The notes beneath the pieces were generated by a model. It was not told where the DNA came from and did not search any database. It saw nothing but the letters and a program-made list of their open reading frames with translations. Shown here one piece after another: positions 11,641-25,849 of a stretch of DNA of 57,849 bases. The DNA lies in NCBI GenBank assembly GCA_947626285.1, contig CANQRR010000019.1, positions 1 through 57,849 of the forward strand. The letters run 5' to 3'. The stretch comes from an uncultured Lachnospiraceae bacterium. GTDB taxonomy: Bacteria; Bacillota; Clostridia; Lachnospirales; Lachnospiraceae. The position numbers and the translations under genes were made by a program. Each line of letters begins with the position of its first letter. Within the stretch, counting starts at the first letter, position 1.

Positions 11641-11807
11641 TGTGACCGCCAGGTTTAAAGAGGGTCGTCCTGCTGTGTAAAAAGCAGAATGCAGTGAAAG
11701 ATTCTGAAATATACTGTATCAAACCGCAGCCTCACGGCAGCCGGTCCGCACGATTTTTGGAAGCCGACCGGTATGGGAGTTTTGTGGGGCGAAGGGCAGG
11801 TACGGGT

Positions 11808-12725
11808 ATGAATTATATTTGGGCGGCAATGATACTGACCGGGATGGTCTATGGGATATTGACCGGGCATATTGAGGCAGTCTCCGACGCGGTGCTGGAT
11901 TCGTCGAAGGAGGCGGTCACATTGTGCGTCACGATGCTTGGGGTCATGGGACTTTGGATGGGATTAATGGAAATAGCGAAAGATGCGGGGCTGGTTCGCT
12001 CGATCTCGAGGCGGATCCAGCCCCTGATTCGTTTCCTGTTTCCGCGGATTCCGGAGGGACATCCGGCGAACGAACATATTACGATGAACTTTGTGGCAAA
12101 TTTTCTGGGCCTCGGCTGGGCGGCGACCCCGGCGGGCCTGAAGGCGATGGAGAGCCTGGCCGCGCTGGAGGAGGAGCGGAGAGCAGAGGCCGAAACAGAT
12201 CGGGGGACGGACGTAGCACAACAGATGGCGGATGCGGGACAGCCGTCGGACAGATATCAGATGGAGGATAAGAGCGCAAGCGCGCAAAAGAAAGAGGACA
12301 GGTACACCCGGAGGACAGCAGCGGAACGACAGGCTGCAAATACGATACAGGCGACGGACAGATACCGGGCGAGGGAAGAACACGTGAGGAAGACGGCAGC
12401 GGCACAGCGGGCGTCAGATGCGGCACAGCGGACAGAAAGAACAGCGCAGCAGGCGGCAGATGCGAAGCGCAGACGGAAAGTGCCTGCCGTACCCCGCGGC
12501 GTGGCGAGCAACGAGATGTGTACGTTTTTGATCCTGAATATTTCCTCCCTGCAGTTAATTCCCGTCAATGTCATCGCCTACCGCGCGCAGTATGGCAGTG
12601 TGAACCCCACGGCAATTGTTGGTCCGGGGATTGCGGCAACGGCGGTGAGTACATTGGTGGCGGTGGTGTTCTGCAAGGTGATGGACAAGATGCAAGATTC
12701 CATTAAATTAGATAAAATAAATTAA
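11808..12725 (+). CDS. spmA: Spore maturation protein A with a hydrophilic insert
   Basis: SpmA is a membrane protein of the nucleoside-recognition (Gate) family needed for full spore-core dehydration. The ends match the family: VTMLGVMGLWMGLMEIAKDA and NFLGLGWAATPAGLKAME in the first half, and LQLIPVNVIAYRAQYGS with a TAIVGPGIAATAVS block in the second. The usual length is about 200 residues, but this one has 305, because roughly residues 125-231 are an Ala/Arg/Gln/Glu-rich hydrophilic insert in the loop where SpmA normally runs straight from KAME to the TFL segment. spmB, the usual partner, is not beside it. A partial second copy of the 3' end lies at 22072-22194. The start at MNYIW is set by homology; its ribosome site is weak. 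Confidence 0.85.
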   Translation: MNYIWAAMILTGMVYGILTGHIEAVSDAVLDSSKEAVTLCVTMLGVMGLWMGLMEIAKDAGLVRSISRRIQPLIRFLFPRIPEGHPANEHITMNFVANFLGLGWAATPAGLKAMESLAALEEERRAEAETDRGTDVAQQMADAGQPSDRYQMEDKSASAQKKEDRYTRRTAAERQAANTIQATDRYRAREEHVRKTAAAQRASDAAQRTERTAQQAADAKRRRKVPAVPRGVASNEMCTFLILNISSLQLIPVNVIAYRAQYGSVNPTAIVGPGIAATAVSTLVAVVFCKVMDKMQDSIKLDKIN

Positions 12726-12730
12726 AACAG

Positions 12731-12788
12731 ATAAAAACTATTTAAATCGAATAAAAACTATTTAAATTTGGTAAAGATATGATATAAT
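12731..12788 (+). promoter_or_regulatory. Promoter region with a 20-bp tandem direct repeat upstream of the ATPase gene
   Basis: ATAAAAACTATTTAAAT occurs at 12731-12747 and again at 12751-12767, 20 bases apart, followed by a TATGATATAAT extended -10 (TATAAT at 12783-12788). Two identical boxes two helical turns apart just upstream of a -10 look like a regulator-binding site. No classical -35 is visible. Confidence 0.5.
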
Positions 12789-12817
12789 GGTTAAAAAATA
12801 TAGATTGGAGATTAAAG

Positions 12818-13990
12818 ATGTTAAAGGCAGAAGATATATTCAGACCAGGAGCATTTCCTGAGTACACATATGTATCAAGGACGTCGGCGAATTCTGGACT
12901 CACATATGAGTTTCGTTTAAATCAGGCAATTAAGGTGTCTGGATTTTTGACATCTTTGGTGGGGCCATCCAAAATGGGTAAAACAATATTATGTGAGAAA
13001 GTAATTGGATTAGAACATATTGTGGAAATATCAGGTGCGGATTTTGATGAGGGGACAGATTTCTGGAAGCTGGCAGCCGCAAAGGCCGGTCTGTCCTACG
13101 AAGGGCAGTTTACATCGGAAAAAGAGATTGCAGAGGCTGGAAGTAAATATTCTAAAAAGGAAACCTTTGTGCTGACTAAGGACAAGATAATCGATTATTA
13201 CAAAGAAAAAGAATTGGTGCTAGTCATTGATGATTTCCATTATGCACCGGAAGTGAAAAGAATGCAGATCGCTCAGCAGTTAAAAGACGCGATTCGCAGA
13301 GGATTTAAGACAATTGTCGTCTCTCTTCCGCATAGGGCAGATGAGGCTATTCGACAGAATGCAGATCTTTCCGGCAGGCTGAGCCTGATTAATATGGAGC
13401 CCTGGACAGTTAATGATTTGGAGCAGATAGCAAAAGTTGGGTTTGAACAATTAGGGATATCTATTAACACTTCAATCGCAAGCCAGATTGCGGTTGAAAG
13501 CTTAACGTCACCTCAATTAATGCAATATATTTGCTTAAATATCTGCACAATATTGGAGATGGACAAAAAAGGGTGTAATACTATCAAACGAGAAATTCTG
13601 GAAACGGCATATCGATATACGACTGCGAATTTTGAATACGGAGAAGTTATTTCCCTTATGAAAAAAGGCCCAAATACAAGGGGAAGATCAAGAAATAAAT
13701 TTCGTACAAAAGAAGGATACGAATATGATATATATGAATTGATCGTAAAATCGATTGCAGAAAATCCGCCGATTATGCAATTAGAATTCGAAGAGATAAA
13801 GGGCAGGATTTATAATCTACTTACCGATGACTTTGAAAAACCGAAACCTCAGGCTATAAAGGATGGTCTGGCAAAGCTTCAGGAGCTATTGAGTGGAAGG
13901 GAAGATATTTTTAGAGTGTTGGAATGGAAGGAAGGAGTTTTATATATATTAGATCCGTTATTTTTATTTTATTTACGCTGGGGGAGGTAA
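12818..13990 (+). CDS. AAA ATPase (archaeal-type ATPase_2-like) of an ATPase/nuclease pair
   Basis: A 390-residue P-loop ATPase with a Walker A GPSKMGKT near residues 49-56, a Walker B LVLVIDDFHY near 132-140, and a C-terminal winged-helix-like region ending VLYILDPLFLFYLRWGR, an ending typical of ATPase_2/STAND-like ATPases. GGAG precedes the ATG. The next gene starts 6 bases after its stop and encodes a putative PD-(D/E)XK nuclease, so the two probably work together; such pairs are common in defence islands. The base composition is much more AT-rich than the spmA and glycan genes to the left, a sign of transfer. Its exact role is not recognised. Confidence 0.7.
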   Translation: MLKAEDIFRPGAFPEYTYVSRTSANSGLTYEFRLNQAIKVSGFLTSLVGPSKMGKTILCEKVIGLEHIVEISGADFDEGTDFWKLAAAKAGLSYEGQFTSEKEIAEAGSKYSKKETFVLTKDKIIDYYKEKELVLVIDDFHYAPEVKRMQIAQQLKDAIRRGFKTIVVSLPHRADEAIRQNADLSGRLSLINMEPWTVNDLEQIAKVGFEQLGISINTSIASQIAVESLTSPQLMQYICLNICTILEMDKKGCNTIKREILETAYRYTTANFEYGEVISLMKKGPNTRGRSRNKFRTKEGYEYDIYELIVKSIAENPPIMQLEFEEIKGRIYNLLTDDFEKPKPQAIKDGLAKLQELLSGREDIFRVLEWKEGVLYILDPLFLFYLRWGR

Positions 13991-13996
13991 AGGTGA

Positions 13997-14623
13997 ATGT
14001 CGAAAGAAATCAGCGGTATACAGGAAGCGATAGAGAGAATTCAAGAATGCAGTTCCCCGGAGGCTTTCGACGATACGAAGCGCCAACTGGAAGAGTATAT
14101 GAAAAGAACAGGTATGGGAGCAGAATGCATATCGGAGCTGGAAAAACGTGCGTTTTATTATGTAAATGAATATTCAGAAAAGGATACGAGTCGGAGTATC
14201 AAGGCGGCAAAAGAACGTGTAATCCAATATGTTTATGAAAAAATGACTGAAAAACCCGGAGAAAATAATCTTTTATCTGTATTGGAAAATTACTATTATT
14301 TTCTGGAAAGTCTTTTGGAAAGGGAACCGGATAAAAGGGGCGGCATTCAAAAGAATCATTTAGATGCGATCAGAATCAAAAATGAATATGACGTTCAGTT
14401 TTTACTATATGCGTACTTAAAGCCTCTTTATCCTGAGGCACGGTTAGAAGTCAGCGAAGATACAGGCTATAGTACAGTTCGGACGGATATTTACATTGAG
14501 CCTGATAAAGCAATCGAGATAAAATGCAGTCGGGGAAATATGAAGGTGAAAAAGACTAACCAGGCTAATCAAATTATAAAAAGAGAAGGTACCAGCCAGA
14601 AGGGCAAATGGGTTATTATGTGA
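13997..14623 (+). CDS. Putative PD-(D/E)XK nuclease (DpnII/MboI-like), probably frameshifted at the C-terminus
   Basis: A 208-residue protein whose second half reads like a DpnII/MboI-type restriction-endonuclease fold: NEYDVQFLLYAYLKPLYPEA, then a VRTDIYI strand with the catalytic Asp, then AIEIKC supplying E-x-K. The N-terminal half is helical and unrecognised. The reading frame ends soon after the active site (KGKWVIM), shorter than expected for this fold. In another frame the same DNA encodes YQPEGQMGYYVIFVFA and stops at 14640, which looks like the missing last strand. A small indel near 14560-14590 therefore probably truncated the gene. It is preceded by the ATPase gene by 6 bases. Confidence 0.6.
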   Translation: MSKEISGIQEAIERIQECSSPEAFDDTKRQLEEYMKRTGMGAECISELEKRAFYYVNEYSEKDTSRSIKAAKERVIQYVYEKMTEKPGENNLLSVLENYYYFLESLLEREPDKRGGIQKNHLDAIRIKNEYDVQFLLYAYLKPLYPEARLEVSEDTGYSTVRTDIYIEPDKAIEIKCSRGNMKVKKTNQANQIIKREGTSQKGKWVIM

Positions 14624-14636
14624 TATTTGTTTTTGC

Positions 14637-14664
14637 TTGATTTGAGGCAAATGTGAGATATGAT
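14637..14664 (+). promoter_or_regulatory. Predicted promoter for the Wadjet operon
   Basis: TTGATT at 14637-14642 and TATGAT at 14659-14664 are separated by 16 bases, 57 bases before the jetD start codon. The -35 overlaps the alternative-frame stop of the upstream nuclease gene. Confidence 0.45.
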
Positions 14665-14720
14665 TTTAAAGAAGTATGCACCAGAAGATTGACCCAAAAT
14701 AGACGAAGGAGATTGGTCGG

Positions 14721-15929
14721 ATGGGACAAAAGAGTCAGACGGCATCTCGCAGGCAGATCACGCTGGGACAGTGGCTGATTGAAAAGACGGATACGGACAG
14801 TTGGCGTGCAGGGAAGGTGACAGGTTTTAAGCACCCGGAGGTGGATCAGGAGATGATAACTGCCGTCGGGAGAAAGAATTTGCTGGAACAGGCCGCCGCG
14901 CTGGAACGGGAGGGGCTGATTACGGTGGAATGGAAGGATGTCCGCACGGATATCCGGAGGATTCACTTTGACGTGAAGCAGATGGACAGGCTGTGTGAAC
15001 GGGAGGGCATTGAGAATCCGCGTCGCCGTCTGGAAAATGTGCGCAAGACTGTATGGAAATGGAGAGGGCGGACGCAAGCAGAGTGGCTGATTTCTTACTA
15101 CGACAATCTGCTTGGAAAGCTGGATGCCGGAAAACTGCCGCAAAACGCCGAGGACGAAGAGTTATTCTGCTGTCTGAATGCCATCGCAGGCCTGAAGCAG
15201 GACGTATGGAAACGCGTATTCAGCGCCCGGATCTTTCGGAATTCAAAGCATTTTGAGAATTTCTGCCAAAACAGAGTTCTCACGATATTAAGAAACTATT
15301 CGCCTCTTTGCCGCGAGGATATGGAGGATGTAGAGATACTGGCTGAGCACAGGATCATGACCTATTCTCAGACGCTCGAATGGAAGGGCGCGGTGGTCTA
15401 CCGTATTTTGGGAACGGACGGCACGGAGGAAAGCAGAGTGGATACCTCCGGGCAGATCTGGGGGACGATGCTGAATGCGCAGACTCTGAGTCATGCGCTT
15501 CCGGTGGCGGCGGAGCGCGTGCGGGAGGTAATTACCATTGAGAATAAGGCGAACTATGAGGCCATGGAATTTGCTCCCTCAAAGCTATATATTTATGCAC
15601 ACGGGTTCTTTTCCCCCAAGGAGCGTATTTTTTTGAATGAGCTGAGGCAGATCCTTCCGGTTGGCGTCTGTTACCGTCACTGGGGCGACATGGATTACGG
15701 TGGAATTCGCATTTTTCAATTTATCCGGCAGCACGTTTTCCCGGAGGCGATGCCGTTGCACATGGACCGGAAAACCTATGCGGCTGCTTTGCAGAGGGGA
15801 GCAGGGATCGCGCTGGAGGAGGAAAAACGTAAAAAACTGGAGCAGATGGACGCCGGGGCTCTGGAGGAACTGAAAGCCTGCATTTTGGAAAAGGGTATGG
15901 AGATTGAGCAGGAGATGCTGATGACGTGA
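14721..15929 (+). CDS. jetD: Wadjet system protein JetD (toprim-type nuclease subunit)
   Basis: JetD (DUF2220-type C-terminal domain) is the nuclease that cuts plasmid DNA after loop extrusion by the JetABC condensin. The 402-residue protein has a winged-helix-like N-terminal half and a toprim-like C-terminal half: ITIENKANYE (about 271-280) gives the toprim Glu, and HWGDMDYGGIRIF (about 320-332) gives the DxD metal site. AAGGAG precedes the ATG at 14721. It leads the operon jetD-jetA-jetB-jetC. The D-first order fits type II/III Wadjet systems better than the jetABCD order of type I, though I cannot fix the subtype by eye. Confidence 0.85.
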   Translation: MGQKSQTASRRQITLGQWLIEKTDTDSWRAGKVTGFKHPEVDQEMITAVGRKNLLEQAAALEREGLITVEWKDVRTDIRRIHFDVKQMDRLCEREGIENPRRRLENVRKTVWKWRGRTQAEWLISYYDNLLGKLDAGKLPQNAEDEELFCCLNAIAGLKQDVWKRVFSARIFRNSKHFENFCQNRVLTILRNYSPLCREDMEDVEILAEHRIMTYSQTLEWKGAVVYRILGTDGTEESRVDTSGQIWGTMLNAQTLSHALPVAAERVREVITIENKANYEAMEFAPSKLYIYAHGFFSPKERIFLNELRQILPVGVCYRHWGDMDYGGIRIFQFIRQHVFPEAMPLHMDRKTYAAALQRGAGIALEEEKRKKLEQMDAGALEELKACILEKGMEIEQEMLMT

Positions 15930-15985
15930 GAAAAATACAGCCAGGATGTCTTTATCTTGGGCAGGAGATTTGGGGAAGGTAGTAC

Positions 15986-17476
15986 ATGATCTTAAAGAAA
16001 CGGATACCAAAGGATTTTTATAAACTTTTCCGGACGAAAAACAGAGAGATTTATATGGAGCTGCTCGTCGCCATCTATCAGGAGAACAACGAGGTTTATG
16101 CCGCGTTGGGACTGACAAGGGAGGAGTGCCTTGCCATTGTCAACGAGACTATGGTGCGCACGCAGTTGCGGTGGCAGACGGAGCCGGAGGAGAGCGCGGA
16201 AAGCGACGAGAAGACGGAAGCACAGGCAGCAGATAAGGCTGATGGGTCAAAGTGGCGGAGTATCAGGGCGCAGAGGGCGGAAGACTTAAAAGATATGGAG
16301 TTCTCTGCCTCGATACTGCTCGGACGGCTGATTGATTGGGGGTGGCTGAAGAGCGATTTCGATGAAAAGATGAACAGTTATGTGATTTCGTTTCCGGAAT
16401 ACAGCCAGCTTTTTACCGAGCTGTTTCAGAAACTGCAGAGGGAGGATGACAGTCGAGAGAGGGAGAGCATTCTCTCCGTATACAGCGCATTGTATACCTT
16501 TCATTCCGATCAGGAACGCAACAATGACATTCTTCGGAACGCCCTGCAGACCTCGAAAGGCCTGGGGCAGTTGCTGTCCAATATGCAGGATGGGATGCGG
16601 GCGTATTTTGACAAGCTTTCAAAACGCAAAAATTTTATCGGGATACAGGAGGTTCTGGTCGAGGAAATCAACAACAGTGACAGCAGGCGCTATGCGATCC
16701 TTACGACGACGGACAGTTTTTATCGCTATAAAGAGGCGGTGAAGGAGCTGATCAGTCAGATTCTGAATGAAAATGACAACAGGAAGCTGGACCTGGAGCG
16801 GGAGCAGAGCAGTCTGCAGCAGGGTACCCTTATGTGGATGAGGGGACAGCGCGCTATAGAGCTCTGTGAGGAGACGAACGGACTGATCTACAAGATTGAC
16901 CGGGAGTTCGATCAGATTGAGCAGAAATACAACAAGTTGATTAATCAGAAGACGATCTTTGCGAAACGGGCGCTGGCGCGGGTGCGCTATATTCTGCAGG
17001 AGGGCGTGGAGGACGCTGATATTCTGCTTAGGCTGTTTCGTATTCTGGAACAAAGAGATAACCCGGATGAGGTTCTGGAGGATTTGCGGGGGAGACTGAA
17101 GTTTTCCGCGCAGTTCGGACAGCTCTGCGACGCGAGCCTTTACAGCCGCAGGGAGAAGACCGAATCGGAATTCCGGCCGGTGACAGGGGCAGAAACGGAG
17201 GAGCCGGCTGCGCACATCACGGATTATGTGCCGAGACCGCTGTATACAAGAAAGGAGCTGGACGATTTTCGGCTGAAAAATACATCCGATGGGAAATTCA
17301 GAGCGACGCAGGACACGGTACACTCGGTAGAGGATTTGGAAAAGCTGCTGTTCTTGTGGCAGCAGGAGACGGGCGCTGCAGAGAAAACCGGCAGGATTGT
17401 GCTGGAGGATGAAGTCCGGACAGCGGAAGGCTTTACGTTTTCCGGTCTGACCATAGAGGAGGAAAAACATGCTTAA
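15986..17476 (+). CDS. jetA: Wadjet system protein JetA (kleisin-like subunit)
   Basis: JetA is the kleisin-like subunit that bridges the JetC SMC heads. The 496-residue protein begins KKRIPKDFYKLFRTKNREIY, continues through a helical middle (FSASILLGRLIDWGWLKSDF, then a long region from about 150 to 340 with heptad-like spacing) and ends with an acidic, Pro-containing segment. There is no catalytic motif, as expected. The call rests on the JetA-like start together with the operon position between jetD and jetB; the residue-level match is weaker than for jetC or jetD. The 3' end overlaps jetB by 8 bases, implying coupled translation. Confidence 0.8.
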   Translation: MILKKRIPKDFYKLFRTKNREIYMELLVAIYQENNEVYAALGLTREECLAIVNETMVRTQLRWQTEPEESAESDEKTEAQAADKADGSKWRSIRAQRAEDLKDMEFSASILLGRLIDWGWLKSDFDEKMNSYVISFPEYSQLFTELFQKLQREDDSRERESILSVYSALYTFHSDQERNNDILRNALQTSKGLGQLLSNMQDGMRAYFDKLSKRKNFIGIQEVLVEEINNSDSRRYAILTTTDSFYRYKEAVKELISQILNENDNRKLDLEREQSSLQQGTLMWMRGQRAIELCEETNGLIYKIDREFDQIEQKYNKLINQKTIFAKRALARVRYILQEGVEDADILLRLFRILEQRDNPDEVLEDLRGRLKFSAQFGQLCDASLYSRREKTESEFRPVTGAETEEPAAHITDYVPRPLYTRKELDDFRLKNTSDGKFRATQDTVHSVEDLEKLLFLWQQETGAAEKTGRIVLEDEVRTAEGFTFSGLTIEEEKHA

Positions 17477-18107
17477 TTATATGGAAACACTGTCGCCGTC
17501 GGAGGCGGATGCTGTGCGCAAAACGATACAGGCGCTGTTTCGACAGACCTGTATCCTGCAGGTAAAATGCGATCCGGCGACGCTGCTCCAGCGCGACGAT
17601 CTGCGCTACAAGATATGCGCAAGGCATCGCGAGTTCATTGCGGATTATCTGGAAGTGCTGGGCTGCGAATTGGTTCACGACCCGCAGGAGCATATTTTCC
17701 GGATTCAGGGGGACGGAGTGCCTGTGGAAAAAATGTCTTTGACGGCCACCAGGCTGGTGCTTTTGATGAAACTGATCTATCATGAAAAGATCATGGGAGA
17801 GGGTCTGCACGCCACGGTGACGAACCTAGAGGAGATCCGCGAGTACGGGAAGAATACGAACCTGATCACGAGAAAACTCACCGGACAGGAATGGCAGGAG
17901 GCGCTGGTGCTGATGAAGACGCACCAGATGATCGAGCTGCCGGGGGCGGTGGCGAATCTGGAGGACCGCACGCCGATCTATCTGTACGGCACGGTGAATC
18001 TTTTCTGTACGGGGGCAGATATTCACGAGCTGGTGAAACGGTATCAGACGGAGGAGGAGAATACGCAGGATGCAGAAGAAGATATTTACCCGGATGAGTC
18101 TGAATAA
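17469..18107 (+). CDS. jetB: Wadjet system protein JetB (kite-like subunit)
   Basis: JetB is the small winged-helix KITE subunit of the condensin-like complex (DUF4194/DUF6063-type). The 212-residue protein has two winged-helix-like parts (about 20-100 and 100-185) and an acidic tail. GAGGAGG precedes the ATG, which lies inside the last codons of jetA, and its own 3' end overlaps jetC by 38 bases. This overlap chain supports fixed stoichiometric synthesis of the three condensin subunits. Confidence 0.82.
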   Translation: MLNYMETLSPSEADAVRKTIQALFRQTCILQVKCDPATLLQRDDLRYKICARHREFIADYLEVLGCELVHDPQEHIFRIQGDGVPVEKMSLTATRLVLLMKLIYHEKIMGEGLHATVTNLEEIREYGKNTNLITRKLTGQEWQEALVLMKTHQMIELPGAVANLEDRTPIYLYGTVNLFCTGADIHELVKRYQTEEENTQDAEEDIYPDESE

Positions 18108-21100
18108 CTGGGGAGGGATCAGCCACAGGATTCTGGAATTTCACGAGTATGTAAATCTGTTCAGCGGAAAGAGCGGCTCCGGGAAGTCGACGGTGATGGA
18201 CGCCATACAGGTAATCCTGTACGGGAGTTTTTCTTCCAATTTCCTGAACAAGGCGGCAGATGACGCGAAAAATAAGAGAAGCGTGCTGGGCTATCTGCGT
18301 GGGGAGCAGAAGGACGGAACGGCGAACCGGGAGGGGCAGGACTTCTGCTCCACGATCGTGCTGGAGATCGAAGATACCGGAACGCATATTGTAAACTGTG
18401 TGGGGATCGGATTTGAAGTGCGCAAAAAGGATACCGATCTGAAAAAGTACGTGTATTTCAGCCATTCCGGGAGAATGCCGGAGAGAGGCTACCTAAACAG
18501 GCAGGGATATCCGTACACGAACCACGATATCCGCCAGCTGGTGCAGGAGAGATCCGCTTCGCCGGACAACCGCGGGAAGCCGGACGTGAACCGCATCTAC
18601 CCGTCGAAGGAAGCCTATCTGAACACGCTGTACGAGGGAATTCTCGGGTACATCGACGGCACGCGTTTCGGCATTATGGAGCGGAACGCGATCGCCCTGC
18701 GCATGACAAACGGAACCGGACAGTTCATCAGGGACTACATGTTTCCCAAGAGCGTCACGGATACGATTTCGGACATCAGCGATCAGCTCGGAGCCTACCG
18801 CGAGATTCGCGAGAAGATTGAGGATCTGGAAGAGCGGATCGGGATGCTTTTGCAGGTGAAGCAGGCGGGGGACGAGCTGCAGGAGACAGAGTACGGTCTG
18901 GTGAGAAATGCGGCGTTTCTGCGATGCATGGATATTCAGGATATTCAAAACAAGATCGCAGCGTATGAGGAAGACAGAAAGGCGGCGCAGGAACAGGAGC
19001 AAAAGATCGGCGATAAACTGAAACAGCTGGATCAGGAATACGCGGCTGCAGAGGAGGAGCTGATCCAGGCCAGCGCCGACCTGAAAGCCAGCGATCTCGG
19101 GAGCCGCAGGGAAATGCTGGAGCAGGTGCTGAAACGGGAGCAGGATCTGGCGGCAGGAAGCAGGGAGTGGAGAGCGATCACGCATGGCCTGCGCCGTTGG
19201 GAGGAGGACGAGATCGTCACGGATTACGTCAGCAATTCCATGCTGCAGGAGATCGCATCGTTCGGCAAAGGCAATGTGAGCGAGGAGCAATGCGACAGGC
19301 TCAAAACACAGATTGCGGATGCCAAGGAGATTGTGAATGAGGAGTTGGAAGACCGAAAAGAGAAGCGGCGGGAGATCGGCGGCAGGTTGAAAGAACTGCG
19401 TCAGTTGATTGACGATATGCAGAACAACCGGAAATCCTATGACGGCAATCTGAGGCAGGCGAGGGCGGCGCTGGAGCGAAAGCTCGGGGATCGGTACGGA
19501 AAGTCGGTTCATGTGTATATCCTGGCCGACCTGTTCGATGTAAGGGAGGAAGAGTGGAAAAACGCCATAGAGGGAAGGATGGCGGGACTGAAACTGTCCC
19601 TGATCACGGAGCCGAGGTATTCCCACGACGCCGCGATGCTTTTCCGCGCGATGAAGGAGTTCGAGGAGGTGGATCTGATCAATTCCGACGCTGTGGTGAA
19701 GAGCAGGCCGGAGGCTTTGCCGGGTTCCCTGTACGATGCGGTGGAGACCGGGGAGAGCTATGTGGACGCCTGCCTGAAGCGGTATCTGGGACACATCATC
19801 AAATGCCGTTCGGTGGAGGAACTGGAGGAGGCCGGAAACGGCGTCACGCCGGATTGTTATTCGTACAGCAATTTCCGTTTCCGCCATCTGCGCAGGAAGG
19901 ATTATACGGTTCGCGCGTTTATCGGGAGGACCGTCTCGAAGGCGAAGCTTTCGGAATACATGGAACAGGAGGAGCGTTTGCAGAGGGAGTATGACAGCCT
20001 GATTCGGGAGATTGAGGCGCTGAGCGCCGCGGGCGATTTTGAGAGCCTGAAGCACGATGCCGATATCCTGATACAATGGTCCCGTGCGGACAGGGAGCTT
20101 GAGGAGGAGCGCAAGAAACAGGCAAAGTTGGAGAAGGAGATCGAACAGCTGGAAAAAGGAAAATACGGGGAGCTCAAACGTCGGGAGGAGCAGTGCCGCA
20201 AAGAGCGGGACGGACTGAAAGAAAAACTGAACGCCTGCCGGGAGAGCCAGAGGGACGCAGAGATCCTGCGTGTCGAGTGCGAACAGAAGATTGCGGCTCA
20301 GCGACAGAATCTGGAGGAAAAAAGCGAGGGCTATGTCGCGAACGCCGAGATCGAGCAGGAGGTGGAAGAACAGCTGAAGCACTTCTCCGGGCTGACCCTC
20401 CGGAACCGAAAAGCCAGGGAGATCAGTGAGTTGAAAGAGCGGGAAGACCGGCAGAAGGAAAAACTTCAGAAGAGCAGGATCGACTTCAATGTGAAATATC
20501 CGTCCTGCGGCTTGGATGAAAGCAGCTCTAATCAGACCTATCTGGATCTGCTTGACAGATACCGGCAGGATTTTGAGCCGAAGTATAAGGCGGAATTTGA
20601 AAAGCAGTGCGATTTTGTGTATAAGAGCCTGCGCGGTAATGTGATTGCCACGATTCACGGCGATATCAAGGCGGCGAAGCGCCACACCTACGAGATCAAC
20701 CGACTGCTGCGCCGGACAAATTTCTCAGACAGCACCTATCAGATTCGGATCGACCGGGCGCAGAATGAGAACGGCCAGTTTTATGATATGCTGATGGCGG
20801 AGGAGCTGGACAGTAAGAATCTGGATAACGGAGGCTACGAGGGCCAGCTGAGTCTGGAAGAGGATACCTTTTTCCAGAAATATGGGCAGAAGATTCAGCT
20901 GCTGATCGAGAAGTTTATGCCTGCGAGGGACGAGAGCGAACAGATGGCGCAGCAGAGACGGGCAGAGATGGAGAAATATGCCGACTACCGGAACTACCTC
21001 TCGTTCAGCATGTTTGAGCAGGTGACGGATGAGGACGGTCAAGTGATTCGTGAGAATCCGGTGGACGAGATGGCGGGAAAGGATTCCGGTGGAGAGGGAC

Positions 21101-21456
21101 AGAATCCGAAATATGTGGCGCTCCTTGCGGGGTTTGCTATGCTGTATCTGCAGCAGAGCAACCGCGATTCGAAGATCCGGTTGGTGCTTTTGGATGAGGC
21201 GTTTTCCAAAATGGATCAGGAGCGCAGCGAGGTATGCCTGAAGTATGCGCGGGAGCTCGACCTGCAGATGATCGTCTGTGTGCCGGACGAGCGGCTTCAA
21301 TCCCTGATTCGCAATGTGGACTGTGTTTACGGTTTTCGCAGATATCAGAATCAGATTTCCATGATGCATATTGATAAGGGCGATTATCTGAAATTGATGG
21401 AGGGCGATACAGTTGATGAACTGGAGGAGAGTGTGTTCGATGGGAGGAAGCAATAA
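18070..21456 (+). CDS. jetC: Wadjet system protein JetC (SMC/MukB-like ATPase)
   Basis: JetC is the SMC-like motor that extrudes DNA loops. The 1128-residue protein has Walker A GKSGSGKST at 33-41, long coiled coils (about 270-470 and 640-830) flanking a globular hinge-like region around 480-640, the ABC signature SGGEGQ near 1006-1011 and Walker B RLVLLDEAFSKMD near 1037-1049. All ATPase elements are intact, so the system looks functional. The ATG at 18070 has GGAGGAG upstream; an internal ATG at 18094 is also possible. A 730-codon open frame on the other strand is a shadow of this gene. Confidence 0.93.
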   Translation: MQKKIFTRMSLNNWGGISHRILEFHEYVNLFSGKSGSGKSTVMDAIQVILYGSFSSNFLNKAADDAKNKRSVLGYLRGEQKDGTANREGQDFCSTIVLEIEDTGTHIVNCVGIGFEVRKKDTDLKKYVYFSHSGRMPERGYLNRQGYPYTNHDIRQLVQERSASPDNRGKPDVNRIYPSKEAYLNTLYEGILGYIDGTRFGIMERNAIALRMTNGTGQFIRDYMFPKSVTDTISDISDQLGAYREIREKIEDLEERIGMLLQVKQAGDELQETEYGLVRNAAFLRCMDIQDIQNKIAAYEEDRKAAQEQEQKIGDKLKQLDQEYAAAEEELIQASADLKASDLGSRREMLEQVLKREQDLAAGSREWRAITHGLRRWEEDEIVTDYVSNSMLQEIASFGKGNVSEEQCDRLKTQIADAKEIVNEELEDRKEKRREIGGRLKELRQLIDDMQNNRKSYDGNLRQARAALERKLGDRYGKSVHVYILADLFDVREEEWKNAIEGRMAGLKLSLITEPRYSHDAAMLFRAMKEFEEVDLINSDAVVKSRPEALPGSLYDAVETGESYVDACLKRYLGHIIKCRSVEELEEAGNGVTPDCYSYSNFRFRHLRRKDYTVRAFIGRTVSKAKLSEYMEQEERLQREYDSLIREIEALSAAGDFESLKHDADILIQWSRADRELEEERKKQAKLEKEIEQLEKGKYGELKRREEQCRKERDGLKEKLNACRESQRDAEILRVECEQKIAAQRQNLEEKSEGYVANAEIEQEVEEQLKHFSGLTLRNRKAREISELKEREDRQKEKLQKSRIDFNVKYPSCGLDESSSNQTYLDLLDRYRQDFEPKYKAEFEKQCDFVYKSLRGNVIATIHGDIKAAKRHTYEINRLLRRTNFSDSTYQIRIDRAQNENGQFYDMLMAEELDSKNLDNGGYEGQLSLEEDTFFQKYGQKIQLLIEKFMPARDESEQMAQQRRAEMEKYADYRNYLSFSMFEQVTDEDGQVIRENPVDEMAGKDSGGEGQNPKYVALLAGFAMLYLQQSNRDSKIRLVLLDEAFSKMDQERSEVCLKYARELDLQMIVCVPDERLQSLIRNVDCVYGFRRYQNQISMMHIDKGDYLKLMEGDTVDELEESVFDGRKQ

Positions 21457-21515
21457 TTTATGCAAATTTGTTTTTGGTATATATTGCGATAGTTTTAGAA
21501 AGGAACAGGTAGAAA

Positions 21516-22028
21516 ATGATCGAGCCGAGGAAGGTAAAATTTGAATCAAAAAAGAAAGAAAATGAAAATCTTGCGTTCCGCACATTTTTAAAGTGCCACG
21601 CGGACGAGGAGACATTGGACAGGCAGTTTCGGGAACTGCATGAAGAATTATTTGCGGATTATGATTGCAGCCGATGCAGAAATTGCTGCAAAATGTACGC
21701 GGGAAGTATTCCGGAGGAAGAGGTGGATCGTGACGCAAAGTGTCTGGGCATGACACGCGAACAGTTTATGGATACATATCTGGAAAACAAAACGGTAGAG
21801 GGAAATTATCAGACCAAACATATGCCATGCGACTTTCTGGAATCGGATGGATCTTGCAGGCTGGGTGACTGCAGGCCTGACAGCTGCAAAAAATATCCGT
21901 ATACCAACCAGCCGGAGCGTCTGCAAAGTCTGTACAGTGTTCTGGATGTGATCGAAGTCTGCCCGGTTGCGTTTGAGATCTATGAGCGTTTGAAAAAAGA
22001 ATATCATTTTCGTTGGAGGAACCGATAA
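21516..22028 (+). CDS. YkgJ family cysteine-cluster protein
   Basis: A 170-residue protein with the YkgJ/UPF0153 cysteine pattern: CSRCRNCCK near residues 51-59, later a MPCDFL cysteine, then a CRLGDCRPDSC cluster, and a single Cys in EVCPVAFEIY. The family is thought to bind a metal or Fe-S centre, and its role is unknown. AGAAAGGAACAGG precedes the ATG. It is the last gene before the spmA remnant, so it probably belongs to the inserted segment rather than the backbone. Confidence 0.8.
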   Translation: MIEPRKVKFESKKKENENLAFRTFLKCHADEETLDRQFRELHEELFADYDCSRCRNCCKMYAGSIPEEEVDRDAKCLGMTREQFMDTYLENKTVEGNYQTKHMPCDFLESDGSCRLGDCRPDSCKKYPYTNQPERLQSLYSVLDVIEVCPVAFEIYERLKKEYHFRWRNR

Positions 22029-22071
22029 TTTTCTGAAAATAGAAAATCTTTTTTAGTCCTACTTGATGTGC

Positions 22072-22194
22072 AGCTAATTTTTTGGACTTGGCTGGGCAGC
22101 AATCGTCGGGCCGGGAATCGCGGCGACAGCTGTGAGCACGCTGGCAGCTGTGGTGTTCTGCAAAGCGATGGAAAGAAAGAAAAAAGCCGGATGA
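22072..22194 (+). pseudogene. Internally deleted remnant of a second spmA 3' end
   Basis: From 22078 the frame reads FFGLGWAAIVGPGIAATAVS and then STLAAVVFCKAMERKKKAG before a stop at 22194. The first eight residues match the NFLGLGWAA block of intact SpmA (residues about 98-106), and the rest matches its last 45 residues. The whole stretch between them is missing. Just upstream, GCTAATTTTTTGGA needs one more T to continue in frame (ANFF). The DNA is clearly related to but diverged from the intact gene at 12640-12700, so it is not a very recent copy. Confidence 0.85.
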
Positions 22195-22238: not shown

Positions 22239-23720
22239 TCAACCCTTCAAGGATTCAGCTTCCTCTTTTGTGCAGCCTTCACGGCTGTAGCGGGCTTTTT
22301 CGTACAGTGTGTGCAGCTTGTCTGTGGATGGATCCCGGATAAGCTGCGCTTTTGTTTCCAGTTCGGTGGGAGTTTCCCAGCCGGCAGGGATTTTCTTTCC
22401 GGTCAAGGTTGTCCGGTCGGCGGCGATCCGGCCGCTTGTGCGTTCTTGCCCCGCTGATGTTTGTGATTCAGAAGAGGACGATCTTTCCGTGTCGGAGCGT
22501 TTTCCCATGGCGCGGAGAATCGTCTTTTTATATTGCCTGCGTATTCTCCGGTTCGGCGAACTCCGCCGTTCCTTTTTTTCGCGCACGCGGCGCTCTTTGG
22601 TGCGGGTGCCGGAGGATTCTTCTGTCCCGAGAAAGAGAATCTCATCCGCTTCGTCCTGCGCAAAGTAGGACAGAGCGTTGCGGCAGACCCGATAGATTAC
22701 GATCAGCAGGGCGATCCCGACAGCGACTGCGCCCAGATAGAAGAGCACGTTGCCGAGCGCGACCAGCCACGCGGGCGGGTCGGTGGGAGCTTCCTCCGGC
22801 AGGCCGAAGTCCGGATCGGAAAGTCCGCCCTGCATCAGCTCTTCCATGTCAGTGGAAGGGGTGAGCTCAACCGGCTTTATGTGCGCGCGCAGATTTGTCA
22901 GCGGCTCTCTGCCGTAGAGTGCCGACGGCAGTACGATCAGTCCCAGCAGGATCACGCTGACGAGCAGCAGGATCCGCCCGACCTTCTGGATGGAATGGAC
23001 CGGAAGGTTGGCGATCCGTTTGTTTTCGCGGATAAAGCGCTGCATATTGTCCTGGTAGCCGAAGAGGAAACAGACAAAGACATCGGCGAGCAACAGATAA
23101 AAGACATAGATCAGAAGATCGCTTTTTCCGGCGACCAGAAAGATCAGATAGTAAAACGCGAACACGCCCCAGTGCGTCGGAACCGGACGATCCAGAAAGG
23201 TCGGGATCTCCCAGAGCTCCGGGGCAAGCTGTCCGCCAGCTTCGCCGGGCATTTCTGCCAGCATCCGTTTTAATTTTCCCTTTTTGAGACGTGTATAGCA
23301 GCGCGCCGCCAGAAGAAACGCCGAGAGCGATACGGTCAGGACAGAGTGTGTGAGTCCGGCGAGCAGCGCGCAGACGACGCAGGAGCACAGCAGGTAGACG
23401 ACAAGTGAGCGTGTGGCACGGATCAGGATCCAGCCGAGCGCAAGGGGAACGATCAGCCAGAGAGATTCTGCCAGAAGTTCCGCGGGACTTTTGAGCTCAT
23501 AGGGCAGCAGTTCCCCCGACATCTCCATATCGTAGGCGAGGGTCGTCAGAAGATACAGGCCGGCGCAGATCGCCAGAATGTGGAGCCAGGACAGCGCCGA
23601 GAGGAAGAGGTTATCTTCCGGCTTTACGATCCTGCTGAATCCGTTGTCCTTTTTTGTATTTTGTGATGTCTCTGCGTCACTGTTGCTGTCGAAACGGAAT
23701 TGCTTTTCTTCTATCTTCAT
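22239..23720 (-). CDS. DUF4129-type multi-pass membrane protein
   Basis: A 493-residue membrane protein that follows moxR and DUF58 genes in one operon. About nine hydrophobic segments lie between residues 35 and 350. A cytoplasmic tail contains the basic RIRRQYKKTILRAMGKR and the LYEKARYSREGCTKEEAESL ending typical of DUF4129. Many homologous operons carry a transglutaminase (TgpA-like) domain here, but I find none. GGAGGTG precedes the ATG at 23720, which overlaps the DUF58 stop (ATGA). The operon type is linked to complex assembly or cell-envelope maturation, but its role here is not known. Confidence 0.7.
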   Translation of the reverse strand: MKIEEKQFRFDSNSDAETSQNTKKDNGFSRIVKPEDNLFLSALSWLHILAICAGLYLLTTLAYDMEMSGELLPYELKSPAELLAESLWLIVPLALGWILIRATRSLVVYLLCSCVVCALLAGLTHSVLTVSLSAFLLAARCYTRLKKGKLKRMLAEMPGEAGGQLAPELWEIPTFLDRPVPTHWGVFAFYYLIFLVAGKSDLLIYVFYLLLADVFVCFLFGYQDNMQRFIRENKRIANLPVHSIQKVGRILLLVSVILLGLIVLPSALYGREPLTNLRAHIKPVELTPSTDMEELMQGGLSDPDFGLPEEAPTDPPAWLVALGNVLFYLGAVAVGIALLIVIYRVCRNALSYFAQDEADEILFLGTEESSGTRTKERRVREKKERRSSPNRRIRRQYKKTILRAMGKRSDTERSSSSESQTSAGQERTSGRIAADRTTLTGKKIPAGWETPTELETKAQLIRDPSTDKLHTLYEKARYSREGCTKEEAESLKG

Positions 23721-24904
23721 GAGATGCCCACCTCCCAACGCATCAGATGGATGCCCGGCATATCCGCATGGAGCAGGGCGGCGCCAGGATTTACGGGAAT
23801 CACCCACAAAATCTCATTGCCGACGGACAGCGTGCGGAGCAGGTGCATTGCGGCGCTGTCCTGATTTTTCGAGATCAGGACATAGATCTGTCCGGACTGC
23901 TTTCGGATGATCTCTTCCTGCAGGAGATCGTTGATCGAAGCGGTTTTCTGCTGTGTGTCGATGCACGCAAGCATGCGGTTCAGTTCGTGGATCTTTGCCG
24001 CGCCGGGTTTGCCGTGCCATATCAGGAGTCTGTCCGTCGAGTTTGCGCCCGGATCATTCGCAGAATTTTCTGTGTTTTCGGTATCCGGAGAGCTTAAAAT
24101 AAATTCCCCGATCGTCGCGTTGCTGAGGAGCCGCAGTTCCATGTTCTGCTTCACCAGGCGCGCGGCGAGGGACGAGGCGATGCGTATGCCCTCCTCCGTC
24201 AGCGCTTCGCTGCGCAGAATATGCGAATCCTCCACGTCGAGAAAGATCGTGGCGCGGATGCTGGTCGTGGAGTCAAACTGGTTCACCATCAGAGAACTGC
24301 TCCGCGCGGAAGCTTTCCAGTTGATGTGGTGCATGGGGTCGCGCCGGTATTCGCGAATGCCGGAGAATTCAAACGGGTCGGGATACAGGCGGTTCTGCAC
24401 GAGCACCATGCCGGAGATCGTCTGACAGAGCAACCGGATCCTGCCCGTGTCGATCTGCGCCGGATAGACATAGAGCTGCGTCTGCTGGGCGGCGTTGAGA
24501 TAGTGTTGCGTGCGGAAAAACAGGTCGTAACCGACCACCTCCACGTTGGAGATCTGGTAAAACCCGCGCTTCCGGCAGATAAAAGGAAGCGTGTGGATCA
24601 CCTTCTGGTGGAACAGAAAGGAGAACACATCACGCTTATAGCTTAAGTCGGTCACATTGGTATTTGCCTTCGCTTCGCCGGAAAACTCCAGATCGCGGCT
24701 GAGCGCGAGGCGCACTTCGAGCGCGGGGAGCGGGAGCTTTTTGTCGTTGGCGATCTCTTCGCGCAGAGAGGAGGAGTCGCCCTCATACACGCAGGAGTCG
24801 GAGAAAGAAGTCCGCACCTGCAGACGCTTGTCCCAATAGTTTCGATAAATATATTTTTGAAGATGGTAAGCGAGCAGCACGCCGACCAACAGTAAAACGA
24901 GCAT
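23717..24904 (-). CDS. DUF58 domain protein
   Basis: A 395-residue protein with one N-terminal membrane helix and a DUF58/vWA-like domain. The diagnostic block FSGIREYRRDPMHHINWKAS is near residues 185-205, followed by VNQFDSTTSIRATIFLDVED. DUF58 proteins are regularly encoded with MoxR ATPases, which are thought to act on them as chaperones. Its ATG directly follows the moxR stop codon (TAAATG) and its end overlaps the next gene by 4 bases, so the three genes are one unit. Confidence 0.9.
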   Translation of the reverse strand: MLVLLLVGVLLAYHLQKYIYRNYWDKRLQVRTSFSDSCVYEGDSSSLREEIANDKKLPLPALEVRLALSRDLEFSGEAKANTNVTDLSYKRDVFSFLFHQKVIHTLPFICRKRGFYQISNVEVVGYDLFFRTQHYLNAAQQTQLYVYPAQIDTGRIRLLCQTISGMVLVQNRLYPDPFEFSGIREYRRDPMHHINWKASARSSSLMVNQFDSTTSIRATIFLDVEDSHILRSEALTEEGIRIASSLAARLVKQNMELRLLSNATIGEFILSSPDTENTENSANDPGANSTDRLLIWHGKPGAAKIHELNRMLACIDTQQKTASINDLLQEEIIRKQSGQIYVLISKNQDSAAMHLLRTLSVGNEILWVIPVNPGAALLHADMPGIHLMRWEVGIS

Positions 24905-25849
24905 TTAACGTTTCCCCCAGTCCTCTGTGGGCAGCGGTATCCCTGAGAGGATCTCACTGATGATCTGCGCGGAGAGCCGCTTTTCGTCTTCACCGGCCAT
25001 AAGGTTCAGCCGGTGCGCGAGCACGGGGACGGCGACGGTCTTGATGTCTTCGGGGACGACGTAACCGCGCCCCTGCACCAGCGCGTACCCCTGCGACGCG
25101 CGCACGAACGCTAAAGTTCCTCTTGGGCTGACGCCATGCAGCACCTTTGCGTGCTCTCTGGTGGCGTGGATGACGTTCACGATATATCTCAGAAGTTCCG
25201 GATGCAGCCAGACATTCCGACATTCTTCCTGGAGCTGTACGATATCTTCCGTTGTGCAGACGGCGGCAAGCTGTTCCAGCGGCTCATCCGTAAGGAAACG
25301 CTCCACCATTGCGCACTCCTGCGCCGGGGAGAGATCCTCCATCGAGATCTGCATGAGAAAACGGTCCATCTGCGCTTCAGGCAGAGGGAAAGTCCCCAGA
25401 GTTTCAAGCGGATTCTGTGTGGCGATCACCAGAAACGGCTCCGCCAGAGGCCGCGTGACCTTGTCCACAGTGACCTGTCGTTCCGCCATGCACTCAAGCA
25501 GACTGCTCTGCGTTTTCGGCGTGGCGCGGTTGATCTCATCCGCCAGCAGAATATTGCAGAAGACGGGGCCTTCCGAGAAGATGAATTCGCCCTGCTGTGC
25601 ATTGAAATAATTCAGTCCGGTGACGTCGGAGGGCAGCAGATCCGGCGTGAACTGCACGCGTCCGAAATCCGCCTGCACCGAGCGCGCCAGAGACTTCGCC
25701 ATCACGGTCTTTCCTGTGCCCGGGACGTCCTCCAGAAGGACATGCCCCTTCGCCAGAATGCAGGTGAGGATCAGTTCGATCGTGCGCTCATTGCCGATCA
25801 TGACCCTTGCGATGTTGTCTTTCAGTTTTTGTAAAATGTTCTCTTCCAT
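24905..25849 (-). CDS. MoxR family AAA+ ATPase
   Basis: A 314-residue AAA+ ATPase: Walker A EDVPGTGKTVMAKSLA near 40-55, Walker B LADEINRATPKTQSSLLECM near 108-127, sensor-type ATQNPLE, and the MoxR PEAQMDRFLM arginine-finger region. MoxR proteins act as ATP-driven chaperones for vWA/DUF58 partners, here encoded immediately downstream. It starts the operon, with GAGGG before the ATG. Confidence 0.95.
   Translation of the reverse strand: MEENILQKLKDNIARVMIGNERTIELILTCILAKGHVLLEDVPGTGKTVMAKSLARSVQADFGRVQFTPDLLPSDVTGLNYFNAQQGEFIFSEGPVFCNILLADEINRATPKTQSSLLECMAERQVTVDKVTRPLAEPFLVIATQNPLETLGTFPLPEAQMDRFLMQISMEDLSPAQECAMVERFLTDEPLEQLAAVCTTEDIVQLQEECRNVWLHPELLRYIVNVIHATREHAKVLHGVSPRGTLAFVRASQGYALVQGRGYVVPEDIKTVAVPVLAHRLNLMAGEDEKRLSAQIISEILSGIPLPTEDWGKR

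Follow-up and report, generated by a model that had tools for sequence, protein, structure and literature searches.

How does the 3' end of a spore-cycle gene come to stand twice on one contig, with a set of defence genes in between? The question is raised by contig CANQRR010000019.1 of an uncultured Lachnospiraceae bacterium. This stretch of 57,849 nucleotides (the whole of the DNA analysed, called the window here) holds an intact spmA gene, a block with type I Wadjet genes behind it and, at the far side of the block, a displaced and decayed piece of spmA, the stub. In the gut Lachnospiraceae, fixed points of spmA appear to serve mobile elements as insertion sites, with exchangeable blocks, many of which consist of genes against phages or plasmids, lying between an intact spmA and such a leftover. 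It is probable that spmA is a docking site of serine-recombinase elements and that the stub of the window is the right edge of one such insertion. The parts on which this reading turns are the following.

11694..12725, + strand: intact spmA, with the conserved reading from Met 11811 and codon 97 (AAT of ANFLGLGW) at 12099
12099..12725, + strand: 3' half of the intact spmA, which would have come with the last cassette or been restored through recombination
22049..22072, + strand: END of the window, TTTTTTAGTCCTACTTGATGTGCA, which differs at two bases from the form in genome G056 and occurs in other genomes
22076..22194, + strand: displaced, decayed spmA 3' half (the stub), with its stop codon at 22192-22194

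The displaced spmA piece

A search of the genome with its own SpmA protein found two places, 11811-12722 and 22090-22182. The latter is 71% identical to SpmA (E 1.7e-7 in the protein search), and at the DNA level 22099-22176 matches 12612-12690 at 78% (E 3e-10); a chance similarity of the stub to spmA is ruled out by these values. The stub reads AN-F/FGLGWAA fused to IVGPGIAATAVS and onwards to a stop; one T and about 340 middle bases that are present in the larger remnant of G056 are missing from it. A sequence-only reading of the window had described this second 3' end, the deleted middle with its lost T, the likeness of the two ends in DNA, and the order of an ATPase/nuclease pair, jetDABC and a YkgJ-type gene behind an spmA ending at 12725; all of this was borne out. 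The SpmA of the window also contains a long mid-protein insert rich in Ala, Arg, Gln and Glu (12180-12480), which varies in length and is seen in near relatives too.

Fixed junctions and a shared end sequence

Extra spmA 3' ends like that of the window are preceded by a shared sequence, TTTTTTAGTCCTA(n)CTTGACA, termed END. It was followed through 47 genomes of the genus (SpmA was found in 42) and through loci that were taken from search matches and are not a random sample; most of the genomes are metagenome assemblies. In different species, the remnants of the kind seen in the window begin at SpmA codon 96-97, right after END. Such an END-plus-remnant at codon 97 was found at 10 loci from at least two genera, a total reached with the further junctions of G411, G465 and Lachnospiraceae bacterium 3-2. 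Two of the ten are degenerate (G060 and G465), and the remnant of G060 scores 43-47, where 500 shuffles reach 32 at most. With two or fewer changes allowed, END occurs seven times in 51 loci and the window, each time directly before a site-97 remnant; in no case does it precede codon 97 of an intact spmA.

Within spmA, END is positioned at codon 97 (98-99 in the numbering of locus L218) or at codons 169-170. At a third spmA site, near codon 110, L281, L282, L284 and L286 have a related END, GTTCGTGTCACTAACTTGACnCAA (codons ~110 and ~170 are counted in the 210-residue SpmA of L218). END is also joined to the gene of a Csp-like germination protease. In G225, a copy of that gene with its own 3' end lies upstream, of which only the last 358 codons fall in the stretch examined; CspBA and CspC are its best models, below the cut-off. 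At the same G225 locus (L206-L207), the Csp-like gene has four END junctions in tandem, and the cargo is RHS-like, agr-like and toxin-antitoxin-like; the RHS-like and agr-like genes, named by eye, are not obviously defensive.

Across a collection of 84,980 species genomes, the strict form of END was found in 21 stretches, where about four in all would be expected by chance (an estimate). Eleven lie at spmA and five at the Csp-like gene (three of these on one contig); another two lie at one unidentified gene, one at a helicase-like gene and two at nothing recognised. Eight of the 21 were already known, and the 13 new ones include eight at spmA and one at the Csp-like gene. The END of the window would be an arm of an attachment site, at the right end of an inserted element.

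Recombinases and the left end

Recombinase genes are found close to END in several relatives. At L235, three large serine recombinases stand in tandem, with END at most 7 bases from the last stop; the Pfam check, which covered these three and one of L286/L220, placed the Resolvase and Recombinase domains above the cut-off in all three of L235. A trio also lies 3.6 kb before END at L286, its first member cut by the edge of the stretch, and behind the trio of L294 come an END-like sequence and the 3' portion of a gene for a tyrosine integrase. Recombinase fragments precede END in L281, L282, L284 and G043. In L235 and L294, the recombinase nearest to END resembles XisF and CcrB/CcrC, with scores far below the cut-offs. 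The third L235 recombinase finds TndX-type named plasmid matches at 31% identity, and its best plasmid match is a recombinase family protein at 36%. An L235 recombinase used as a query matches four loci including itself, and at two of them the trio is followed by END or an END-like sequence; the L220 recombinase found no match among viral contigs. Three consecutive serine-recombinase-like stretches were also noticed at 747-4089 of L026 (G012:C32), beside a MoxR gene on the far side of the operon that borders the block.

The left end is seen in two relatives. In G461, spmA ends at codon 170 and runs into TATGAATGATTTATAATAGGACTAAA, termed START, and END with codons 169 onward is found on another contig, behind a recombinase trio. 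In G462, a second, incomplete spmA copy lies downstream of an intact one, and the same START comes after codon 170 of this second copy. The END core recurs in START as its mirror image, and the two have mirrored arms, TTTAGTCCTA and TAGGACTAAA. The evidence for START is limited to these two matches right behind spmA codon 170, and a START-like pattern with one change allowed would be expected about twice by chance in 1.8 Mb (an estimate). The elements of G461:C40 (L285) and G462:C50 (L282) have a common left end and similar first genes, and the interrupted spmA of G461 is the sole complete-start copy found in that genome. Judging from such junctions, recombinase-bearing elements insert plainly and can interrupt spmA; the form of the window, with its intact left copy, needs a further explanation.

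Stacked, empty and exceptional sites

Besides the window, seven genomes of the genus carry extra spmA 3' pieces, detected by search or by reading: G056, G043 (two), G004, G042, G012, G005 and, in degenerate form, G060. G043 has an intact spmA and two 3' halves, each with END. Lachnospiraceae bacterium 3-2, on a scaffold of 2.38 Mb, has two cassettes in a stack, and the first holds the same ATPase-nuclease pair as the window. G011 has an empty site, such as the sequence-only reading had suggested looking for in relatives: about 190 bases separate spmA from a GlpQ-like gene behind it. In G002 the same place holds cargo. END is present in the named-strain assemblies of Lachnospiraceae bacterium 3-2, [Clostridium] fimetarium and Hespellia stercorisuis, and a pure assembly artefact is therefore disfavoured. 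As for the partner gene, spmB lies near spmA at 6 of 30 family spmA loci (~3 kb each) and also at L288, and the SpmB-like gene that goes with L046 (G000:C6) is on another contig.

A hybrid block of exchangeable cargo

Between the intact spmA and END, the window holds the genes below, and the right flank follows the stub.

12818..13990, + strand: AAA ATPase gene (PADLOC PDC-S59), also directly behind spmA in G003 and Lachnospiraceae bacterium 3-2
13997..14623, + strand: DpnII/MboI-like nuclease gene, native to ~14554, then with the tail of an AlbA_2 gene
14721..15929, + strand: jetD of type I Wadjet (PADLOC JetD1, 475.6 bits)
15986..17476, + strand: jetA (PADLOC JetA1, 696.5 bits)
17469..18107, + strand: jetB (PADLOC JetB1, 371.4 bits)
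18070..21456, + strand: jetC (PADLOC JetC1, 1380.1 bits)
21516..22028, + strand: CxxCxxCC (YkgJ-like) gene, the final cargo gene before END, likewise in G005, G056 and G060
22239..25849, - strand: right-flank genes, common to G005, G009, G012 and G022, which we take to be TGase-like, DUF58-like and MoxR-like

All four genes, jetA, jetB, jetC and jetD, are present together and match the PADLOC type I models nearly over their full length. As a Wadjet system they are ordinary, and what is new is their site. JetA like that of the window occurs among the genus genomes in G056 (99%) and G024 (57-74%), with weak matches in four more. The block itself yielded no recombinase, either from Pfam, NCBIfam and PADLOC on its genes or from five recombinase queries against the window. 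In L023, L025, L134 and L136, a large gene that by eye is subtilase-like separates the YkgJ/remnant region from the right flank or from the end of the contig; the window is without it.

The block has more than one source. Its ATPase-nuclease part is ~94-96% identical to G003, and from ~14,560 on it matches G056, at 95-100% over 14600-21300, at 92-97% past 21,300 up to END, and at only 70 of 100 bases beyond END. The G003-like and G056-like parts meet at ~14555, where the nuclease is cut: the copies of G003 and G012 have 243 residues, and the window copy is truncated and ends in a foreign tail, which is that of the AlbA_2 gene of G056. The window block is thus a hybrid in which two cargoes have been fused, and by the same alignments one jet block adjoins different displaced spmA ends in two species. 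The earlier view of spmA as an integration site is supported, through the fixed codon-97 END junctions at 10 loci, the recombinases near END and the differing cargo, and so is the view of the stub as a displaced 3' end; the arrival of the block in a single event is not, given the join at ~14555.

Other genes take the place of Wadjet in relatives, as far as the genes picked for annotation tell. AlbA_2 genes lie behind spmA in G022, G056 and G062 (in G005 by similarity), AbiLi/AriA-like ATPases in G007, G043 and G060, a RhuM gene (PDC-S05) in G002 and a DUF4143 AAA gene (PDC-S01) in G004. The cargo of Lachnospiraceae bacterium 3-2 includes GmrSD-like and NsnB-like genes. Cas3 and further cas-like genes, named by eye, stand close behind spmA in G062 and G464 (L139 and L283); in G464, spmA and the cas genes share a contig with CRISPR-like repeats, and END with remnants is on another. 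By this comparison of loci, the cargo before END is exchangeable and, among the genes picked, often consists of defence genes. The sequence-only reading had tied the stub to Wadjet and named stub-bearing relatives without Wadjet as its test. G005 and G060 carry END and the stub at the same place with other cargo, which rules out a Wadjet-specific stub and refutes that link only.

Origin of the intact 3' half

It had also been suggested that the present 3' half of the intact spmA is foreign. The comparisons made do not establish this, and several observations weigh against a 3' half borne by the cassette. The identity of the window to G003 is 78% over codons 1-96 and ~84% from codon 97, and the level of ~96% begins only at the spmA stop. 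Likewise, the near-identical tract of L281 and L282 begins ~140 bases past the spmA stop of L282, a weak comparison as L281 has other sequence after spmA. Trees of the 5' and 3' halves show no significant conflict. Further, the recombinase-bearing element of G461 interrupts spmA and restores nothing.

The 3'-half trees group the window with G003 (99/94; 93/96), and the 5' half gives the same group weakly (42/84). Third-position identities were compared for 253 pairs of 23 genes, four of 27 having been dropped as they lack the C-part motif. In the excess of 3' over 5' identity, the window-G003 pair ranks only 77, and G003 with G061, G056 and G060 ranks 2, 5 and 11. A tree of the two 3' ends had been proposed as well: the intact halves of the window and G003 group as stated, and the stub (~80 usable bases) is closer to G061 (85%), G003 (83%) and G012 (82%) than to its own spmA (76%). 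The remnants of G043 and G411 group with the spmA of their own genome, and that of G056 does so not specifically; the site-97 remnant of Lachnospiraceae bacterium 3-2, which has no C-part motif, was dropped from the tree.

Docking, recombination and other histories

The mechanism favoured here starts from what is seen directly, namely the anatomy of the loci, junctions at fixed codons, the END sequence, START (in two relatives), stacked cassettes, exchanged cargo and the recombinase genes near END. Large serine recombinases would catalyse the joining of elements to spmA at fixed codons: 97 in the window, ~110 and ~170 in relatives. Mirrored arms are frequent in serine-recombinase sites, and full elements would have START on the left and END on the right with their mirrored arms. 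Insertion would leave END followed by the displaced gene end, and END with the stub in the window is probably such a right edge. START is not seen in the window and many relatives, which have an intact gene on the left instead. Derived cassettes may travel as circles that link END to a copied 3' half of the gene; joining of a circle to the chromosomal spmA would rebuild the gene, as the staphylococcal cassette chromosome (SCC) does at rlmH, and repeated rounds would stack cassettes. Alternatively, homologous recombination could have healed spmA and swapped the cargo. For the route to the intact left copy, circles are preferred over healing by a narrow lead. As spmA is interrupted in G461, the SCC-like restoration step becomes less likely. 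Mobilisation would be in trans. Large serine recombinases of this kind match in 38 of the 47 genus genomes, so that action in trans is possible.

Some observations weigh against docking at END-marked sites. The exact loose pattern of END has four matches in all 47 genus genomes, all at spmA, and its reversed control has three. In 397 family genomes it has 10 matches in 7 genomes against 11 of the reversed control, and this count alone carries no meaning. By position, five of the ten lie at the 3' end of a subtilase gene (four in tandem in G225, one in G361), one at spmA (G411) and four at no recognised target. No END remnant was found in the stretches read at the cargo-bearing sites of G002, G007, G022, G061 and G062. 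The remnant of G004 is without END, and in G465 spmA stands beside spmB without a cassette (L288), with END and the remnant on another contig (L289).

The strongest competitor, itself unlikely, is homologous recombination alone: circles or fragments with a piece of spmA and cargo would enter by a single crossover in the 3' half, cargo would be swapped between the repeats, and END would be the far edge of a single old lineage of elements, passed on by descent. It would account for the near-identical tract of the window and G003 beginning at the spmA stop and not at codon 97; the grouping of the G043 and G411 remnants with their own spmA is what gene conversion also gives. Yet the same END is found at different genes (at two codons of spmA and at the Csp-like gene), with a related END at the third spmA site; moreover, there are recombinase genes close to END, and START mirrors it.

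Skin is a sporulation gene-intervening element with a serine recombinase. A skin- or gin-like element that interrupts spmA or csp and is excised in sporulation, with the window holding its traces, has a small probability, though one raised by G461, where the recombinase-bearing type interrupts spmA at codon 170 (the trio and END being on the other contig). Its targets would fit as spore-cycle genes; however, the window has a whole spmA and a block in which no recombinase was detected, so there is nothing to rebuild, and intact left copies also occur in G043, G411, Lachnospiraceae bacterium 3-2, L281, L282 and L290. If spmA had long ago been duplicated in tandem, with decay of the second copy and a gathering of unrelated genes in between, two spmA-derived copies in direct order around cargo would result, but this history is highly improbable, as the site-97 remnants carry nothing of spmA on the 5' side of the junction, start at a fixed point with END ahead, and number two or more in G043 and L281.

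Relation to known systems

The closest parallel of the docking mechanism is SCC with the Enterococcus cassette chromosome (ECC). Large serine recombinases insert these elements into the 3' region of a conserved gene, with attL in the gene, attR downstream, several attR in composites, remnants and very variable cargo (PMC6222049). An intact target gene and tandem composites are shared by the window, G043 and Lachnospiraceae bacterium 3-2, and not by G461. In contrast, the target here is spmA or the Csp-like gene instead of the rlmH 3' end, the att core TATCATAA is absent from the END junctions by eye, no ccr genes were found in the window block, and the part of the gene that is duplicated greatly exceeds 50 bp. 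The END-adjacent recombinases of relatives reach 58.7 and 99.4 bits against CcrB, where the cut-off is 900.

Serine-integrase triplets of streptococcal integrative and conjugative elements target mutT, traG and hsdM (PMC4701971). The three tandem recombinases of L235, L294 and L286, though not the window, are alike in this, and the G461 element too interrupts its target; the difference is the intact gene on the left in the window and many relatives. The gin element is a sporulation gene-intervening element in gerE (PMC5595907). Spore genes as targets are a common point, as are serine recombinases in the case of skin, whereas such elements interrupt the gene and are excised in sporulation, and spmA is whole in the window and interrupted in the relative G461.

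Among the recombinases, the third of L235 matches the TndX type, as carried by Tn5397, at its low identity. In the literature searched, with subscription papers not covered, nothing was found on spmA together with a serine recombinase and an integration site, and the matches for spmA with mobile elements were unrelated by title. The newness lies in the site at spmA, the Wadjet genes themselves being of a known kind.

Implications

More tentatively, and with the odds somewhat against it, a whole family of serine-recombinase elements with one end sequence may dock in spore-cycle genes (spmA at three sites and the Csp-like gene), its mostly non-autonomous, interchangeable, stackable and defence-rich cassettes being mobilised in trans and rebuilding the 3' end at each integration, as an integron-like loading dock for immunity. 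The docking mechanism predicts a testable pair of recombinase and site. It would give a concrete route, with short searchable end sequences, by which Wadjet, CRISPR-Cas, Abi-like and further defence genes can gather and be swapped at one chromosomal place in gut bacteria. Reading what stands between spmA and END may thus be a way to new defence genes.

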